IMG/VR virus record: IMGVR_UViG_3300025070_000295
Coordinates: 1-20,815 of that record
Strand: one strand, 5' to 3'
DNA length: 20,815 nucleotides
DNA from: a virus
Under the pieces are notes generated by a model. That model was not told where the DNA came from. It did not search any database and saw nothing but the letters and a program-made list of their open reading frames with translations. Both the position numbers and the translations under genes were made by a program. The stretch's first letter is position 1. Every line of letters begins with the position of its first letter. This document shows positions 2,697 to 11,459 of this stretch, piece after piece.

Positions 2697-2736
2697 ATTA
2701 TCTCCTTTTGTAGCTTAATTGCTTGATAATAAAATT

Positions 2737-2765
2737 ACAGTATCAAACTATATATATAATGTAAA
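2737..2765 (-). promoter_or_regulatory. Leftward sigma70-type promoter of the recombination operon
   Basis: On the minus strand a TTTACA -35 box (2765-2760), a 17-nt spacer and a TACTGT -10 box (2742-2737). Predicted start near 2730, giving a leader of about 34 nt with a strong ribosome site. The -10 box matches only the key T, A and T positions, but it mirrors the plus-strand promoter, which strengthens the call. Confidence 0.6.
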
Positions 2766-2795
2766 GTAAAATAATTATCTTTTTTAGCTTTACAT
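2759..2795. repeat. Inverted repeat spanning both -35 boxes (possible operator)
   Basis: ATGTAAAG at 2759-2766 is perfectly repeated in inverse as CTTTACAT at 2788-2795, with a 21-nt AT-rich centre. The arms contain the -35 boxes of the two divergent promoters. A dimeric regulator bound here would block both. The HTH protein encoded at 3723 is the obvious candidate, but that is inference. Confidence 0.55.
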
Positions 2796-2817
2796 AACAG
2801 AATAAATAAATTACTAT
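2789..2817 (+). promoter_or_regulatory. Rightward sigma70-type promoter of the plus-strand operon
   Basis: On the plus strand a TTTACA -35 box (2789-2794), a 17-nt spacer and a TACTAT -10 box (2812-2817). Predicted start near 2824, with a leader of about 40 nt carrying a strong ribosome site (taggagat). Box sequence and spacing are the mirror image of the leftward promoter. Confidence 0.62.
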
Positions 2818-2863
2818 ATAAATATTACATAAGGCAATTAAGCCATTTTATAGGAGATGTAAT

Positions 2864-3721
2864 ATGAAAGTTTCACAAGAAGCCAAGAACGTTTATGAAC
2901 GTACTAATAAAATTTGGAAGGATAATGGTTTTACAATTAGATTCGGTGAACCTAATGAACCTGCTGACTTTAAAACAGCAGTACAATGTATAAAAGCATT
3001 TTGGTTAAAAGAGTTCAATCAAGAATTTCCATATAAAATTGAAAATGCTACATATGATTACGCTATTGGTTTAACGAGAAGGAAAAGAAAAAGTAGCTGG
3101 ATTGTAGAAGATTTGAGTACTCATGGTAGGCGTGACAATAAAAGTAAGGTAAAAGGTTATTACACATACAAACTTGCACCACACACTGGTTGGGCAAATA
3201 TAATACATGAAACAGGACATTTAGCAGGTCTAAAATTAGGTCATCGTCATAATGCAGAACACGCTTGTATTGAATTACGATTTACCAAATTCTTTTTTAG
3301 CAAGAAGTACATTGAAAAATCACGCAAGCGACTTGAGGCCAATCCTCCATCATATACTAACCATGTAATGGATTGCTCTGGACAAATAAAAAAACAGAAG
3401 AAGAAAAGAATAAGTTATAAACAGATGTGTATTACCTGTGCTAAATTGAATGACTGGTTATATTTTGAAATGTATGAAGTTTTTTTTAACACGCTTATGT
3501 GGGAATTTGAAGATAAACGTATAACAAAAGCTTGTAGTAAATATAGCAATTTATATGACTCATGTTCATATGAAGATATCGCGGCTAATTATTGGTGCGA
3601 ATATAAATGGAAACTTGAAAACCTGACATGGAAAGAAAGATGGGAATTATTATCTAAACACAAACTAATGACAAATGAAGATATTGATGATTATGCCAAA
3701 AATATTATGAAAGGAGTGTAA
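2864..3721 (+). CDS. Putative HExxH zinc metallopeptidase (ImmA/IrrE-like or SprT-like possible)
   Basis: A 285-residue protein with a zincin motif in IIHETGHLAG: H115, E116 and H119 would be two zinc ligands and the general base. Further candidate ligands follow in GHRHNAEHACIE (H127, H129, E132, H133, E137). A basic segment follows, with C171 and a CITC pair (C189, C192), which could form a small zinc site. The C-terminal third is helical, aromatic and Trp-rich. No signal peptide or membrane segment is seen, so it probably acts in the cytoplasm. A strong ribosome site (taggagat) fixes the start. It is first in the rightward operon, directly before a Cro-like gene, a setting that recalls ImmA-type proteases that cleave phage or ICE repressors; the His/Glu cluster and Cys pair also recall SprT proteases. 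The exact family is not recognised; peptidase activity is inferred from the motif. Confidence 0.6.
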   Translation: MKVSQEAKNVYERTNKIWKDNGFTIRFGEPNEPADFKTAVQCIKAFWLKEFNQEFPYKIENATYDYAIGLTRRKRKSSWIVEDLSTHGRRDNKSKVKGYYTYKLAPHTGWANIIHETGHLAGLKLGHRHNAEHACIELRFTKFFFSKKYIEKSRKRLEANPPSYTNHVMDCSGQIKKQKKKRISYKQMCITCAKLNDWLYFEMYEVFFNTLMWEFEDKRITKACSKYSNLYDSCSYEDIAANYWCEYKWKLENLTWKERWELLSKHKLMTNEDIDDYAKNIMKGV

Positions 3722-3722
3722 A

Positions 3723-3932
3723 ATGCAACATACAATAAAACAAATTATAGAACAATGTGGAGGCACTACTGCTTTAAGTCAACATTGTAAAACTCAACAA
3801 CAAACAATTAGAAAATGGTATGTCAATAAAGGCATACCAGAAAAGCACTGGGCTAAGATTATAAATCTGTATGGTGATGATTTAACGCCTAGCATATTAC
3901 ATGAATTAAATGAAAGCTTGCGTAATGATTGA
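3723..3932 (+). CDS. Cro/YdaS-like helix-turn-helix DNA-binding protein
   Basis: A 69-residue protein with the layout of Cro/YdaS-type regulators: helix IKQIIEQCGG, the turn motif TTALSQHCKTQQQTIRKWYVN, then KGIPEKHWAKIINLYG and a short C-terminal tail (LTPSILHEL). The GGTTALSQH...IRKWYxxKGIPxxxW pattern is typical of the family. These are small dimers that bind operators, often repressing an early promoter. The gene lies 1 nt after the metallopeptidase gene with a good ribosome site (aaaggagtg). The symmetric divergent promoter region at 2713-2843 is the likely target, by analogy with lambda Cro. No partner CI-type repressor is seen in the window. Confidence 0.78.
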   Translation: MQHTIKQIIEQCGGTTALSQHCKTQQQTIRKWYVNKGIPEKHWAKIINLYGDDLTPSILHELNESLRND

Positions 3933-5986: not shown

Positions 5987-6400
5987 TTAGAGGTCGCTTA
6001 ATTGTGGCCTCTTTTTTTGTAATTGGAAGTGTGGCATATCAATAAATGATTTCCATAAACCACCCCACTCTAATGAAACATTTAACTGACTTGCTGATTG
6101 TAGCATTGCCGTTGCAACCATTGCTAAATGCTCCTCTTTCCAAGATGCTTTGCCATTTACATAAGCATATACATCTAATGCCTCTCCTGTTTGATGCGAA
6201 CTGATTTTCTCATATCCATCGCACTTAGATAAGCCAGCTGTAAATAGTTCATATTGCTCTGCTTGTGTACGCAAACCACCATGAAGTGGTATACCAAAAT
6301 CAACCTTAGTAATTTGTATTGCAAGTCTAGCCACTTTAAATATGTCTGGGTCAACACCCAGCAATCTGTTCTTGCTACTTTTACTAAATCTGAAAGGCAT
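5987..6400 (-). CDS. Endolysin, M15-family peptidase (L-alanyl-D-glutamate type)
   Basis: A 137-residue zinc peptidase that cuts peptidoglycan cross-links at lysis. The VanY/M15 motifs are complete: SSHQTGEALDV at residues 67-77 (zinc ligands H69 and D76), the general base region in EWGGLW (E111), and DMPHFQL at 121-127 (third ligand H124). GGLRTQAEQ near 41-49 is also typical. There is no cell-wall binding domain and no signal peptide, so release depends on the holin encoded directly upstream (stop TAA adjoins this ATG, with ribosome site ggcgag). Small single-domain M15 endolysins are common in phages of Gram-negative hosts. Confidence 0.92.
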   Translation of the reverse strand: MPFRFSKSSKNRLLGVDPDIFKVARLAIQITKVDFGIPLHGGLRTQAEQYELFTAGLSKCDGYEKISSHQTGEALDVYAYVNGKASWKEEHLAMVATAMLQSASQLNVSLEWGGLWKSFIDMPHFQLQKKRPQLSDL

Positions 6401-7463: not shown

Positions 7464-10400
7464 TTATGCTTCTAATGCTTCTAGGCGTGTTTCTAATGCT
7501 TCAATCTTAGCAATAGCGTCTTGTAATGCTGAAGTTAGCAACGGCACTATCTTACTTTGGTCAATACCTTGATAATCTGGCACTTGCCTTGTTGCCATAA
7601 CTTTTTCTGTTGTTTCGCGCCATAGTTGACCTTCCTCAAGTTCATCTGGCTTCTCAACATCTGAGCTATGTATTACTTCATCAATAGCAGGGGTTAGCTC
7701 TTGCTCTTGCTCCTCATAAGTAGCCTCAACAGCAGGTGTAACAAGTTGCTCACGTTCTTCTGTTACCGCTTCAATTGCAGGTGTAACAAGTTGCTCTTGT
7801 TCCTCTGTTATCGCTTCGACAGCAGGTGTTAACTCATTTCCATCATCGTCATAGGTAGCTTCAACAGCAGGGCTTATTTCTACTGTGATTGTTTCATAAA
7901 CAGCATCAACGGCAGGGCTTATTTCTACTGTTACAGTTTCATAAACGGCCTCAACAGCAGGTGTTAGCTCAACTTGTATTGTTTCATATGTTGCTTTTAC
8001 GGCAGGAGTATATATGTCACCTGTTGCTTCACTCTCAACATACTTTTGGTCACGCATTGCATCTTTTTCACCATCAACCGCTTCTGGCACTACTTCTTGT
8101 GCCTCATGTGCTAAGAAGCCGTCTACTCTAGTGCCATCGACTACCCATTCAAAGTTTACTGGCCTTAGTGCTTTAACTCTATCAATAGAGCCTGTCATTT
8201 CTTGCACATCAGTTTTAAGTCTATAGTCTGAGCTTGTAAGATAGCTAGTGCTTGAATTTAGTGTGTTTATTTTACCAACCGCACCATTGGGATTATCAAA
8301 TATAATGTGGTTTCTTAGTCCTGTTGAATCAGTTGTAGATGATATAGCGGGTGTACCTAATGCTATAACACCAACTTCAATAGCACCATCTTGATTAGGT
8401 GTTAGTGAACCAACTTCTATTGTACTTGATACAGTTAAGTCACCTGTTACATCTATACCTGAAGTGTTAACCTCTAGTTTAGTCGCAGTTCCAGCTTTGA
8501 TTTTCATTTTAGCTTGGTCTACCTCTATCTCATAGTCTGAAGTAGCACTTAAGTCATTAAATGTTAGAGTAGGCGTAAAGCTATTTATAGAAATACCACC
8601 TGACACATCTAACCCACTGCCATCTATGGTAGCTCTAACATTGCCAGCATTATCTGTCCAAGTAGTTTTACCTAATCCGTCTATTGTGAAAACTGGATAA
8701 TAACCTGCCGCTACACCATTCCAACCCATAGCCGCTTCAAATATTGTTGAAGTGCTACTTGCCCAAGCATTCATAACGGATAAGCCGTTCTTACCTGATG
8801 CGTTAGAGTTTTGTTGTACTTTAGCTAAGAAGTCACCTGTGGTTGTATATGTTGTTCCATTAGCAACGTCTATACCACCGCTATCAATACGCATACGTTC
8901 TGCGCCACCCGCTTTAATAACAGTTGCAAAACCACCATCGTTAGCATTTAGTGTTAAATTAGAATTATGTGCTTGTATCTCCGCAGGTAGCATATGCGTT
9001 CTGACTGCATCTGCATCGTTAGTAATTCTTATGGCTTCTGTAGAAGCGTTTGCAACAGTTGTTTGTAGCTTAACTTGTGGTGATGTAGTCCCTATGCCCA
9101 CGTTACCTGAGCTATCAATACGCATACGTTCTGCGTTTGCAGTTTGGTCACGAATAGCAAACCACGCAGTTGCCTGTATCTGCCAATCTTGATTGTTATC
9201 AACATCTTCAAATGTAATATAAGGTGCGTTCGATGCTAAATGTAGTAGTGAACTCGGTGATGTACTACCTATGCCCAAGCGCCCATAATTATCAAGACGC
9301 ATACGTTCAGTTACAACATCATCTACACCGCCATTGTTTTGCAATGTACCAAATCTAATGCAACTATCGGGCGTTGTGTCTAATGCGTTTGCTCTAATAA
9401 ATGCAAGCACCTCATTACCATCTTCGGATGTATCATTACCTTTAAAATCAATACCGCCGATTAACTCATTAGCACTAATAGATGTAATAGAATTTTCTAG
9501 TGTTAGTGTTGAGCCACCGCTTCTAGTAGCATCTATATTACCTGTTACATCTATACCACCGCTATCAATCCTCATTCTTTCGCTACCATTTGTAACAAAA
9601 TATTGTACGTCAGTATCAAACTCAAAATAATTGTTTGAGTCACCATGATGCAACAATCTATCTTTGAGCACTATGTCCTCAACATTATCAATTATATTGC
9701 CGTTCATTTGCAGTTGACCTGTCAGTGTCAATGAACCTGTTACATCTATACCAGTAGATGTTGTAGCTAGTTTAGACGCGCCACCATAGTATAATGATAC
9801 CGCGTCATTTCCGTCTGCTGTTAGTAAGTTAGTACCTACCTCATCTTGTAAGCGTATATACTGTCCTTTAACAATAACGTCGCCTGTACCTGTATCTGAA
9901 ATGTAAGAGTTACTACCATCGTGATAGATTTGTAAGTCTGAGCTAGTACCATATTTAGCTTTGACATTATCGTTAAACAGTATGTCACCTGTCATAGTGC
10001 CACCAGCTTTAGGTAGCGCAGCATCAGCAGTATTTGTTGTAGTAGTTAATACAGCATCTCTTGCAGCTATATTAACGCCATCTACTGTGCCTGACACAGC
10101 AATGTCACCTGTTACATCTAGATTACCACTAGAGATAGTTCCAGTTGTTGTAATATTACCAGATGTATCAATATTTGCTTCTGCAGTTGTATTACTACCA
10201 CCGAAATAATGTGTACTTCTTGACTCTATTCTTGAACCCCATACTTCAATTGGTACTGCTTCATCTCTTTGTATCAATAAAAAACTTGATTTGGAACCTA
10301 TATTCCTTGCATCTGTGGCAACATTTCCACCACCATCGCCGATTTCTATCTCCGAAACATCTATAGCATCAAAAGTAGATGTGCCTGTAGCAGTAATATT

Positions 10401-11459
10401 ACCTGTTACATCTAACCCTGAAGTCGTAGCACGTAAGACACTGTCTTGCGAACCAACATTAACAATAAATCTAGGATTTGAACCTGTTTCGCCTTTATCA
10501 ACGTGGATTTGTAATGAACCAGCACTAGAGTTACTATCAATACTCGTAGTTACATTCGTATTTGTATCTACAAGTAATATTTCTGGGTCTGAGGATTCAA
10601 GTGTCAATTTACCTGCAATATCTATATTACCTGTGCCTGTAATATCGTGTGAATTAAGACTTAAGTTGCCTCCAAGTTGTGGTGTAGTATCGTCTACAAC
10701 GTGTGCTAGTCCGCTACTGCCGCCTGTTGCAGATATAGTACCATCAGCCGCTATTGTCACGTTAGTACCAGCAGTAAGTGAAGCAACAACATTTGTTGTG
10801 TCTGTAACATCAGCCGATGCTTCTATTCCGTCTAATTTTGTATGGTCGGCATCTGTGAATGCGTTTGTATTGCTATTGCTCTCGTATGCTGTTTTAATCT
10901 GCGCTGCAGTCTGATCTGCCGTAGCACCCGGCTCTATACCACTTAGTTTACTTACATCAGCGTCAGCAAAATTGTTTGTGTTTGCATTACTTTCATACGC
11001 TGTTTTGATTTGCGCTGCTGTTTGGTCAGCTGTTGCTCCAGATTCAATGCCGTCAAGCTTTGTGCCATCTGCTGATACATCACGCCCATCAATAGTACCA
11101 GTAATAGCTATATTGCCTGTGCCTGTGATATTCCGATTATTTAAATCAAGATTACCGCCAAGCTGGGGAGTCAAGTCCTGTACAATAGCAGTAATACCAG
11201 CATTTTCATCTGTGCCATTTACCCACACATTACCATTGTACTTTAATACTTGACCGCTAATTGCATTGTTAACCTGTACGTCTGTAATGTTATCTAGTAT
11301 GTGATTGTGACCATTATCTACAACAGTTACGACAATATCTATATCGCCTGTGGTGTAATCTAACGTACCGCTACCTGTTGCTTGCCCAGTAAGGTTTGTC
11401 GTTAAATCTGTAGGTACGGGTACGGGTGAACCACCAGCACTATCTTCAGCTATTGGCAT
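7464..11459 (-). CDS. Large tail fibre/tailspike with C-terminal S74 intramolecular chaperone
   Basis: A 1331-residue adhesion protein. The N-terminus (residues 1-110) is probably the virion-attachment part. Residues 134-217 hold KLxGIExGATADQTAAQIKTAYES repeats. From about 225 to 1075 there are many repeats of the types ITGTGNI, GIDVTGNI and ERMRIDSSGNVGIGTTSP, typical of beta-structured trimeric fibres. A peptidase S74 chaperone begins near residue 1076 with SSDYRLK; S1077 and K1082 have the spacing of the autocleavage dyad, and GFLAHEAQEVVPEAV follows. Seven 15-residue repeats interrupt this domain at 1151-1255. The protein closes with YQGIDQSKIVPLL and a coiled coil (IEALETRLEALEA). A good ribosome site (ggagag) fixes the start. 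It is expected to fold as a trimer, release the C-terminal chaperone and bind host surface sugars. Confidence 0.9.
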   Translation of the reverse strand: MPIAEDSAGGSPVPVPTDLTTNLTGQATGSGTLDYTTGDIDIVVTVVDNGHNHILDNITDVQVNNAISGQVLKYNGNVWVNGTDENAGITAIVQDLTPQLGGNLDLNNRNITGTGNIAITGTIDGRDVSADGTKLDGIESGATADQTAAQIKTAYESNANTNNFADADVSKLSGIEPGATADQTAAQIKTAYESNSNTNAFTDADHTKLDGIEASADVTDTTNVVASLTAGTNVTIAADGTISATGGSSGLAHVVDDTTPQLGGNLSLNSHDITGTGNIDIAGKLTLESSDPEILLVDTNTNVTTSIDSNSSAGSLQIHVDKGETGSNPRFIVNVGSQDSVLRATTSGLDVTGNITATGTSTFDAIDVSEIEIGDGGGNVATDARNIGSKSSFLLIQRDEAVPIEVWGSRIESRSTHYFGGSNTTAEANIDTSGNITTTGTISSGNLDVTGDIAVSGTVDGVNIAARDAVLTTTTNTADAALPKAGGTMTGDILFNDNVKAKYGTSSDLQIYHDGSNSYISDTGTGDVIVKGQYIRLQDEVGTNLLTADGNDAVSLYYGGASKLATTSTGIDVTGSLTLTGQLQMNGNIIDNVEDIVLKDRLLHHGDSNNYFEFDTDVQYFVTNGSERMRIDSGGIDVTGNIDATRSGGSTLTLENSITSISANELIGGIDFKGNDTSEDGNEVLAFIRANALDTTPDSCIRFGTLQNNGGVDDVVTERMRLDNYGRLGIGSTSPSSLLHLASNAPYITFEDVDNNQDWQIQATAWFAIRDQTANAERMRIDSSGNVGIGTTSPQVKLQTTVANASTEAIRITNDADAVRTHMLPAEIQAHNSNLTLNANDGGFATVIKAGGAERMRIDSGGIDVANGTTYTTTGDFLAKVQQNSNASGKNGLSVMNAWASSTSTIFEAAMGWNGVAAGYYPVFTIDGLGKTTWTDNAGNVRATIDGSGLDVSGGISINSFTPTLTFNDLSATSDYEIEVDQAKMKIKAGTATKLEVNTSGIDVTGDLTVSSTIEVGSLTPNQDGAIEVGVIALGTPAISSTTDSTGLRNHIIFDNPNGAVGKINTLNSSTSYLTSSDYRLKTDVQEMTGSIDRVKALRPVNFEWVVDGTRVDGFLAHEAQEVVPEAVDGEKDAMRDQKYVESEATGDIYTPAVKATYETIQVELTPAVEAVYETVTVEISPAVDAVYETITVEISPAVEATYDDDGNELTPAVEAITEEQEQLVTPAIEAVTEEREQLVTPAVEATYEEQEQELTPAIDEVIHSSDVEKPDELEEGQLWRETTEKVMATRQVPDYQGIDQSKIVPLLTSALQDAIAKIEALETRLEALEA
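7695..8009 (-). repeat. Seven tandem 45-bp repeats (15-residue units) in the tail fibre C-terminus
   Basis: Residues 1151-1255 are seven consecutive 15-residue units starting TPAVKATYE, TPAVEAVYE, SPAVDAVYE, SPAVEATYD, TPAVEAITE, TPAIEAVTE and TPAVEATYE; an eighth starts TPAIDE and degenerates. The 45-bp period is visible in DNA, for example gcagggcttatttctactgt at 7868 and 7913, and gcaggtgtaacaagttgctc at 7732 and 7777. Units are acidic and proline-containing. Confidence 0.93.
10839..11060 (-). repeat. Two 37-residue tandem repeats (111 bp) near the tail fibre N-terminus
   Basis: Residues 134-170 and 171-207 share KLxGIExGATADQTAAQIK and TAYESNxNTN, and a third partial copy (KLDGIEASADVTDTTNV) follows. 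The protein core is identical between copies although the DNA differs at many third codon positions. Confidence 0.85.

Follow-up and report, generated by a model that had tools for sequence, protein, structure and literature searches.

The window analysed here is an entire viral contig record, 20,815 bases long, from a marine phage. It contains two divergent early operons separated by a 167-nt gap (2697-2863), and it raises the question of why the two operons begin with what look like mirror images of one another. An earlier note had described the gap as symmetric, and every element of that layout is present base for base. On the minus strand, TTTACA (2765-2760) is followed by 17 nt, TACTGT (2742-2737), GCAATTAAGC (2722-2713), AGGAGAT and an ATG at 2696; on the plus strand, TTTACA (2789-2794) is followed by 17 nt, TACTAT (2812-2817), GCAATTAAGC (2834-2843), AGGAGAT and an ATG at 2864. 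Both -35 boxes lie in an unstranded 8-bp inverted repeat (2759-2795), formed by ATGTAAAG (2759-2766) and CTTTACAT (2788-2795).

The divergent operons and their conservation

Taken from the window sequence alone, the symmetry of the gap is not significant. The gap is AT-rich, its longest inverted repeat has 10 bp, and dinucleotide shuffling produces a repeat of that length or longer in 77 of 500 cases (15%); promoter-like sites, moreover, are not in excess in the window (64, versus 82 in shuffles). The predicted promoters of the plus operon (2789-2817, TTTACA-17-TACTAT, 9 of 12 consensus positions) and of the minus operon (2737-2765, TTTACA-17-TACTGT) are likewise not significant individually.

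Conservation is more informative. Relatives were retrieved from IMG/VR through the 285-aa protein encoded first in the plus operon and through the Erf protein of the minus operon, and both leader elements persist in them, even where the gap is only 65% identical, so the leader symmetry is real. The earlier note had made conservation in relatives a test of its inverted repeats. The leader elements pass that test, but the -35 repeat is not kept beyond close relatives, shrinking in our reading of the alignment from 8 bp in the window to 6 bp in L004 and L005, 5 bp in L012 and none in L022 and L023. The picture of divergent early operons whose leaders match each other holds, and the -35/17/-10 spacing is conserved among close relatives, with TTTACT-17-TACTAT or TACCCT at the plus promoter and TTTACA or TTGACG with a 17-nt spacer at the minus promoter. 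No close relative at the DNA level was found among named phages; the best structural-protein matches there reach at most 48% identity (L472 and L473). The leader is absent from these two records and from P19250A (L474), and a covariance model of the leader finds none in L472-L475.

The minus operon starts with an 82-aa gene (2448-2696) assigned to PHROG 6004 by PHROG search and also encodes an Erf-family single-strand annealing protein (1622-2218; Pfam and PHROG), a YqaJ-like nuclease (988-1635), SSB (579-1070) and NinB. The plus operon starts with the 285-aa protein (2864-3721), which carries a HETGH motif and has no match in Pfam and PHROG searches, continues with a 69-aa YdaS/Cro-like HTH protein (3723-3932), a candidate regulator (Pfam PF15943, E=1.9e-6, just below the cut-off; PHROG 35, transcriptional repressor, E=5e-6), and also encodes an HNH protein. 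Gene order is kept in relatives apart from the first plus-strand position, where other genes stand behind a retained leader. Small zincin-type metallopeptidases are common in this position, behind the leader of the regulator operon or another early leader, with HETGH in the window and HELAH in L012 and L165 (leader at L165:9571). ArdC-like anti-restriction proteins (L104:3727-4614, L158:43-969 and L108:5514-6509) and a SprT-like protein (L161:1645-2286) are also found behind early leaders.

A covarying hairpin recurs in sense at a fixed distance from the AUG

GCAATTAAGC is the core of a predicted RNA hairpin, XGC-AAUUAA-GCX′, and not half of a DNA operator. In the plus-operon leader, this hairpin (P1, 2833-2844) reads GGC-AATTAA-GCC, with a stem formed by 2833-2835 and 2842-2844 and a loop at 2836-2841, and is separated by 19 nt from the ATG (2864-2866), with an AGGAG ribosome site in between (site and start codon, 2852-2866). 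Its counterpart in the minus-operon leader (2712-2723) reads AGC-AATTAA-GCT, with an outer A-U pair instead of G-C, and precedes an AGGAG ribosome site and an ATG at 2696-2694 (together 2694-2706). The hairpin is conserved ahead of the Shine-Dalgarno (SD) sequence in relatives. The covariance model, built from the relatives together with both window copies and run with filters off, finds only two strong sites in the window, at E=1.9e-9 for the plus leader and E=2.4e-6 for the minus leader (2694-2728), with the next at 0.02; across the phage group it finds 53 places at E<0.002, two of these in the window.

All 47 distinct occurrences in the group are in the sense orientation, with a ribosome site and start codon after them (46 by a script rule and one with AAAGGGAC), and a control pattern read backwards occurs 0 times. 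The 3′ end of the hairpin lies 18-20 nt before the AUG in 44 of 47 copies, and the SD position varies over 3-10 nt. An HMO-2011-type phage (L167/G016) is included in the orientation count and in the shared-protein lists and excluded from the counts of spacing and of mosaic switches. The hairpin recurs up to six times per contig (six in L113), ahead of unrelated early genes, and six copies start 0-15 nt past the preceding stop codon. The outer pair takes all four Watson-Crick types (GGC/GCC, AGC/GCT, CGC/GCG and TGC/GCA) and is formed in 100% of the group, a covariation score reached by 0 of 500 shuffles. On its own, GCAATTAAGC is at chance level, with three occurrences in 1.5 Mb. Sense-only orientation, a fixed distance to the AUG and covariation of the hairpin are the behaviour of an RNA leader.

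Searches for a known counterpart gave little. Rfam (release 15) has no gathering-score match in the window, L004, L012 or L022, only a sub-threshold preQ1-II match (E=0.38), and text searches of open-licence papers returned no description of the hairpin. No protein common to all carriers was found, nor a shared RNA-binding protein. By eye, no consistent complement indicates a loop-tail pseudoknot. Of the 20 pattern matches in bacterial genomes, almost all lie in coding sequence or belong to a single unrelated repeated sequence, none has the context of a group leader, and we attribute them to chance.

Further pairing is possible around the ribosome site, and the 3-bp hairpin stem by itself is barely stable. 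A possible outer stem in the plus-operon leader has perfect 9-bp arms: ATATTACAT (2822-2830), where the mRNA is predicted to begin, and ATGTAATAT (2857-2865), which takes in the spacer between SD and AUG as well as the AU of the start codon. This stem has 7-9 bp in three of five lineages, with one compensatory change and a different sequence in L012 and L013 (ATTACTA/TAGTAAT), and only 5 bp, not above chance, in the other two; as a general feature of the leader it was rejected, being confined to the plus operon. Separately, 34 of 48 group leaders have a CC, CCU or CUC immediately 3′ of the hairpin, where it could base-pair with GG, AGG or GAG in the ribosome site. Predicted accessibility of the ribosome site does not support strong masking (median unpaired 0.46 at leaders versus 0.58 at other gene starts, p=0.09), and the AUG is more open at leaders. 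As this accessibility differs little from that of other genes, masking of the ribosome site is only a suggestion.

In a few phages the leader region carries additional elements. Tandem leader hairpins, GGCAATCAAGCCACC then GGCAATTAAGCCACC, stand ahead of a single gene at L168:8910-8925 (G026) and in L129. Terminator-like hairpins of the GGGGGCGTAAGCCCCC type lie immediately upstream of several leaders (L113, L118, L025 and L026), as if the cassette consisted of terminator, leader and gene. A T-arm-like GGTTCGATTCC is found just 5′ of leaders in G029 and L108 (L161:2360-2320, L161:600-575 and L108:6522-6550), where ARAGORN predicts no tRNA.

The leader as a joint in mosaic early regions

Homology between phages of the group switches on or off across leader-bearing gene starts in 64 of 80 comparisons (80%) and across other starts in 117 of 358 (33%), the comparisons not being independent of each other. 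Pairs of leaders, again not independent, are often more than 90% identical on one side and without identity on the other; between L107 and L112, for example, 150 nt upstream and the 35-nt leader are identical and the genes behind are unrelated. About 35 nt is also the length of homology used by annealing recombinases, and the Erf/YqaJ annealing system of the phage may make exchanges at the short homology that the leader provides. How phage mosaicism arises has long been in question, with homologous recombination at short boundary sequences and random joining as the alternatives (PMC3029335, PMC3233612). The leader resembles the boundary sequences proposed there in being a homologous segment at a gene border with unrelated genes on one side, but differs from them in doubling as an RNA element that covaries.

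We consider it likely that the leader has two roles, as a cis-acting RNA element of translation initiation and as a short stretch of homology at which early genes are exchanged. Each divergent operon would open with one copy of the same leader hairpin, and the mirrored look of the two window copies comes from this divergent arrangement rather than from a single DNA site made up of both. An initiating 30S subunit would have its upstream edge at the 3′ end of the hairpin, and from this position the leader may influence how translation of the downstream gene starts. In the operon with the HTH gene, the second stem could plausibly tie up the SD-to-AUG spacer, and in most other copies of the group the CC(U) after the hairpin might conceivably pair with the (A)GG of the ribosome site. 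The invariant loop suggests recognition by some factor, which may be a phage protein, a host protein or the ribosome itself. The same 33-39 nt would also serve as the joint at which early genes are exchanged, consistent with the mosaic pattern. Both roles are testable because the boundary sequence is identified here, the RNA structure covaries and genes for an annealing recombinase are adjacent.

A reading in which the leader is conserved only through gene recombination, as a boundary sequence with no regulatory role, would account for the switches of homology in 80% of comparisons and for cases in which 35 nt of leader are identical and the genes that follow are unrelated. It does not explain why stem changes are compensated, why the loop is kept in unrelated phages or why the spacing to the AUG is fixed, and we regard it as improbable.

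The earlier note had proposed another reading, in which the symmetric repeats are a DNA operator and a single regulator, possibly the 69-aa HTH protein, acts there on the two divergent promoters. The divergent arrangement, the 8-bp repeat at the -35 boxes and the nearby HTH gene fit this proposal, but the leader element is single elsewhere, is tied in one orientation to the AUG, covaries and has an asymmetric AATTAA centre, and the -35 repeat erodes in relatives. Nothing in the analysis connects the protein encoded at 3723-3932 with the repeats, although a role for it as an HTH regulator is plausible and an operator may lie elsewhere in the gap (2697-2863). As an explanation of the repeats, control of both promoters from such an operator is very unlikely.

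The hairpin beyond the group and its nearest known counterparts

A broader scan used GCAATTAAGC followed by AGGAG and ATG, with the outer stem left free in the query, and served for analysis of pairing rather than abundance. Among the matches listed, 64 deduplicated loci from unrelated phages fall into 53 protein-linked clusters with a GC content of 25-61%, and, counted outward, pairs 1-4 form 45, 39, 29 and 29 times versus 19, 16, 15 and 16 expected by shuffling (p<0.0002 for each of the four free positions), with off-register pairing at background. A permuted-loop control shows a weaker excess among the matches listed (pair 1 in 19 of 47 versus 11 expected), so hairpins before genes are common in general. 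In matched scans of the whole collection, GGC-AATTAA-GCC followed by AGGAG and ATG occurs in 100 viral stretches and the same pattern with an ATAATA loop in 10; with duplicates removed, this comparison gives 55 versus 6. One otherwise largely unrelated 40.7-kb phage contig (G029) carries three leaders with stems TACTGC, GTGGC and AACGAC. Other multi-copy phages include G031, and by pattern there are five candidate copies in G033, four in G035 and three each in G034 and G036. An apparent family with an AACCAA loop proved to be a homologous coding stretch of one gene and was rejected.

The broad set is mixed, because some of its members are terminators: 6 of the 64 loci among the matches listed have a T run, and the cultured marine phage HMO-2011 has a strong terminator with the same hexaloop (L475:16904, AGGGGGC-AATTAA-GCCCCCT-T8). 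The window itself has a terminator-like hairpin at 5989-6012, AGAGGTCGC-TTAATT-GTGGCCTCT followed by six T, whose loop reads AATTAA on the minus strand; a 9-bp version is found at L113:3609. Terminators such as that of HMO-2011 lend some weight to the idea that C-AAUUAA-G is nothing specific, only a hexaloop favoured in AT-rich phages, where it would cap short hairpins or terminators acting in both directions. This idea is hard to credit given that, in 1.5 Mb of unselected loci, 20 terminators have a hexaloop and in none of them is it AATTAA, that enrichment is seen with a ribosome site and is lost for GCAATTAAGC alone, and that few leaders have a T run.

It is possible, though we hold it with clearly less confidence than the role of the leader within the group, that one AAUUAA-hexaloop RNA signal is common to many unrelated phages, with a common phage or host factor binding the loop and setting early-gene translation. 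Genes would then be swapped by short-homology annealing with control retained, since every cassette would carry the same signal. The leader would add a widespread, uncatalogued RNA element to those of phage leaders, and this would help to place gene starts correctly and to recognize early operons in phages known from metagenomes.

In lambdoid phages, the two divergent early leaders carry small RNA structures, nut/boxB and put, which act on transcription. The present leaders share that arrangement but track ribosome sites gene by gene. That they act in transcription of the early operons, for example as an antitermination signal of the put or nut kind at both operon starts, is the least probable of these readings: both leaders begin at predicted transcript starts and some copies in relatives come after terminator-like GGGGGCGTAAGCCCCC hairpins, but copies within operons follow directly on a stop codon, and association with the ribosome site and spacing to the AUG are strict.

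The nearest known kinds of element are the SAS/ESAS and PeSL cassettes, with each of which the leader shares some features while lacking a defining one. SAS and ESAS were described in cluster K mycobacteriophages (PMC3203893), with similar elements in cluster EF Microbacterium phages (PMC7302621), and are thought to concern translation initiation (PMC3203893, PMC7302621). Like SAS, the leader is short, conserved and present in many copies in one orientation just before the starts of unrelated non-structural genes. SAS, however, is the ribosome site itself, a 13-bp GGGATAGGAGCCC that contains the SD and lies 3-7 nt from the start codon, whereas GCAATTAAGC is upstream of the SD and ends 18-20 nt from the AUG. 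ESAS consists of imperfect 17-bp inverted repeats upstream of SAS whose arms do not support RNA pairing, unlike the covarying 3-9 bp stem and 6-nt loop of the leader. PeSL cassettes of T4-like phages (Arbiol 2010, Comeau 2014), as summarized in PMC4503421, fuse an early promoter to a terminator stem-loop. The leader resembles them, in that summary, as a small intergenic stem-loop cassette at the borders of early genes shuffled between relatives. It differs from the cassettes as summarized there in that its constant part is a non-terminator hairpin with a ribosome site, in that group leaders have no T run, and in that several copies (the six that start 0-15 nt after a stop codon) leave no room for an intergenic promoter.

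Elsewhere in the window, the tail-fibre gene (7464-11459) contains two stretches of 45-nt tandem repeats of about three copies each (7701-7988), which encode repeated ELTPAVEA-like peptides.
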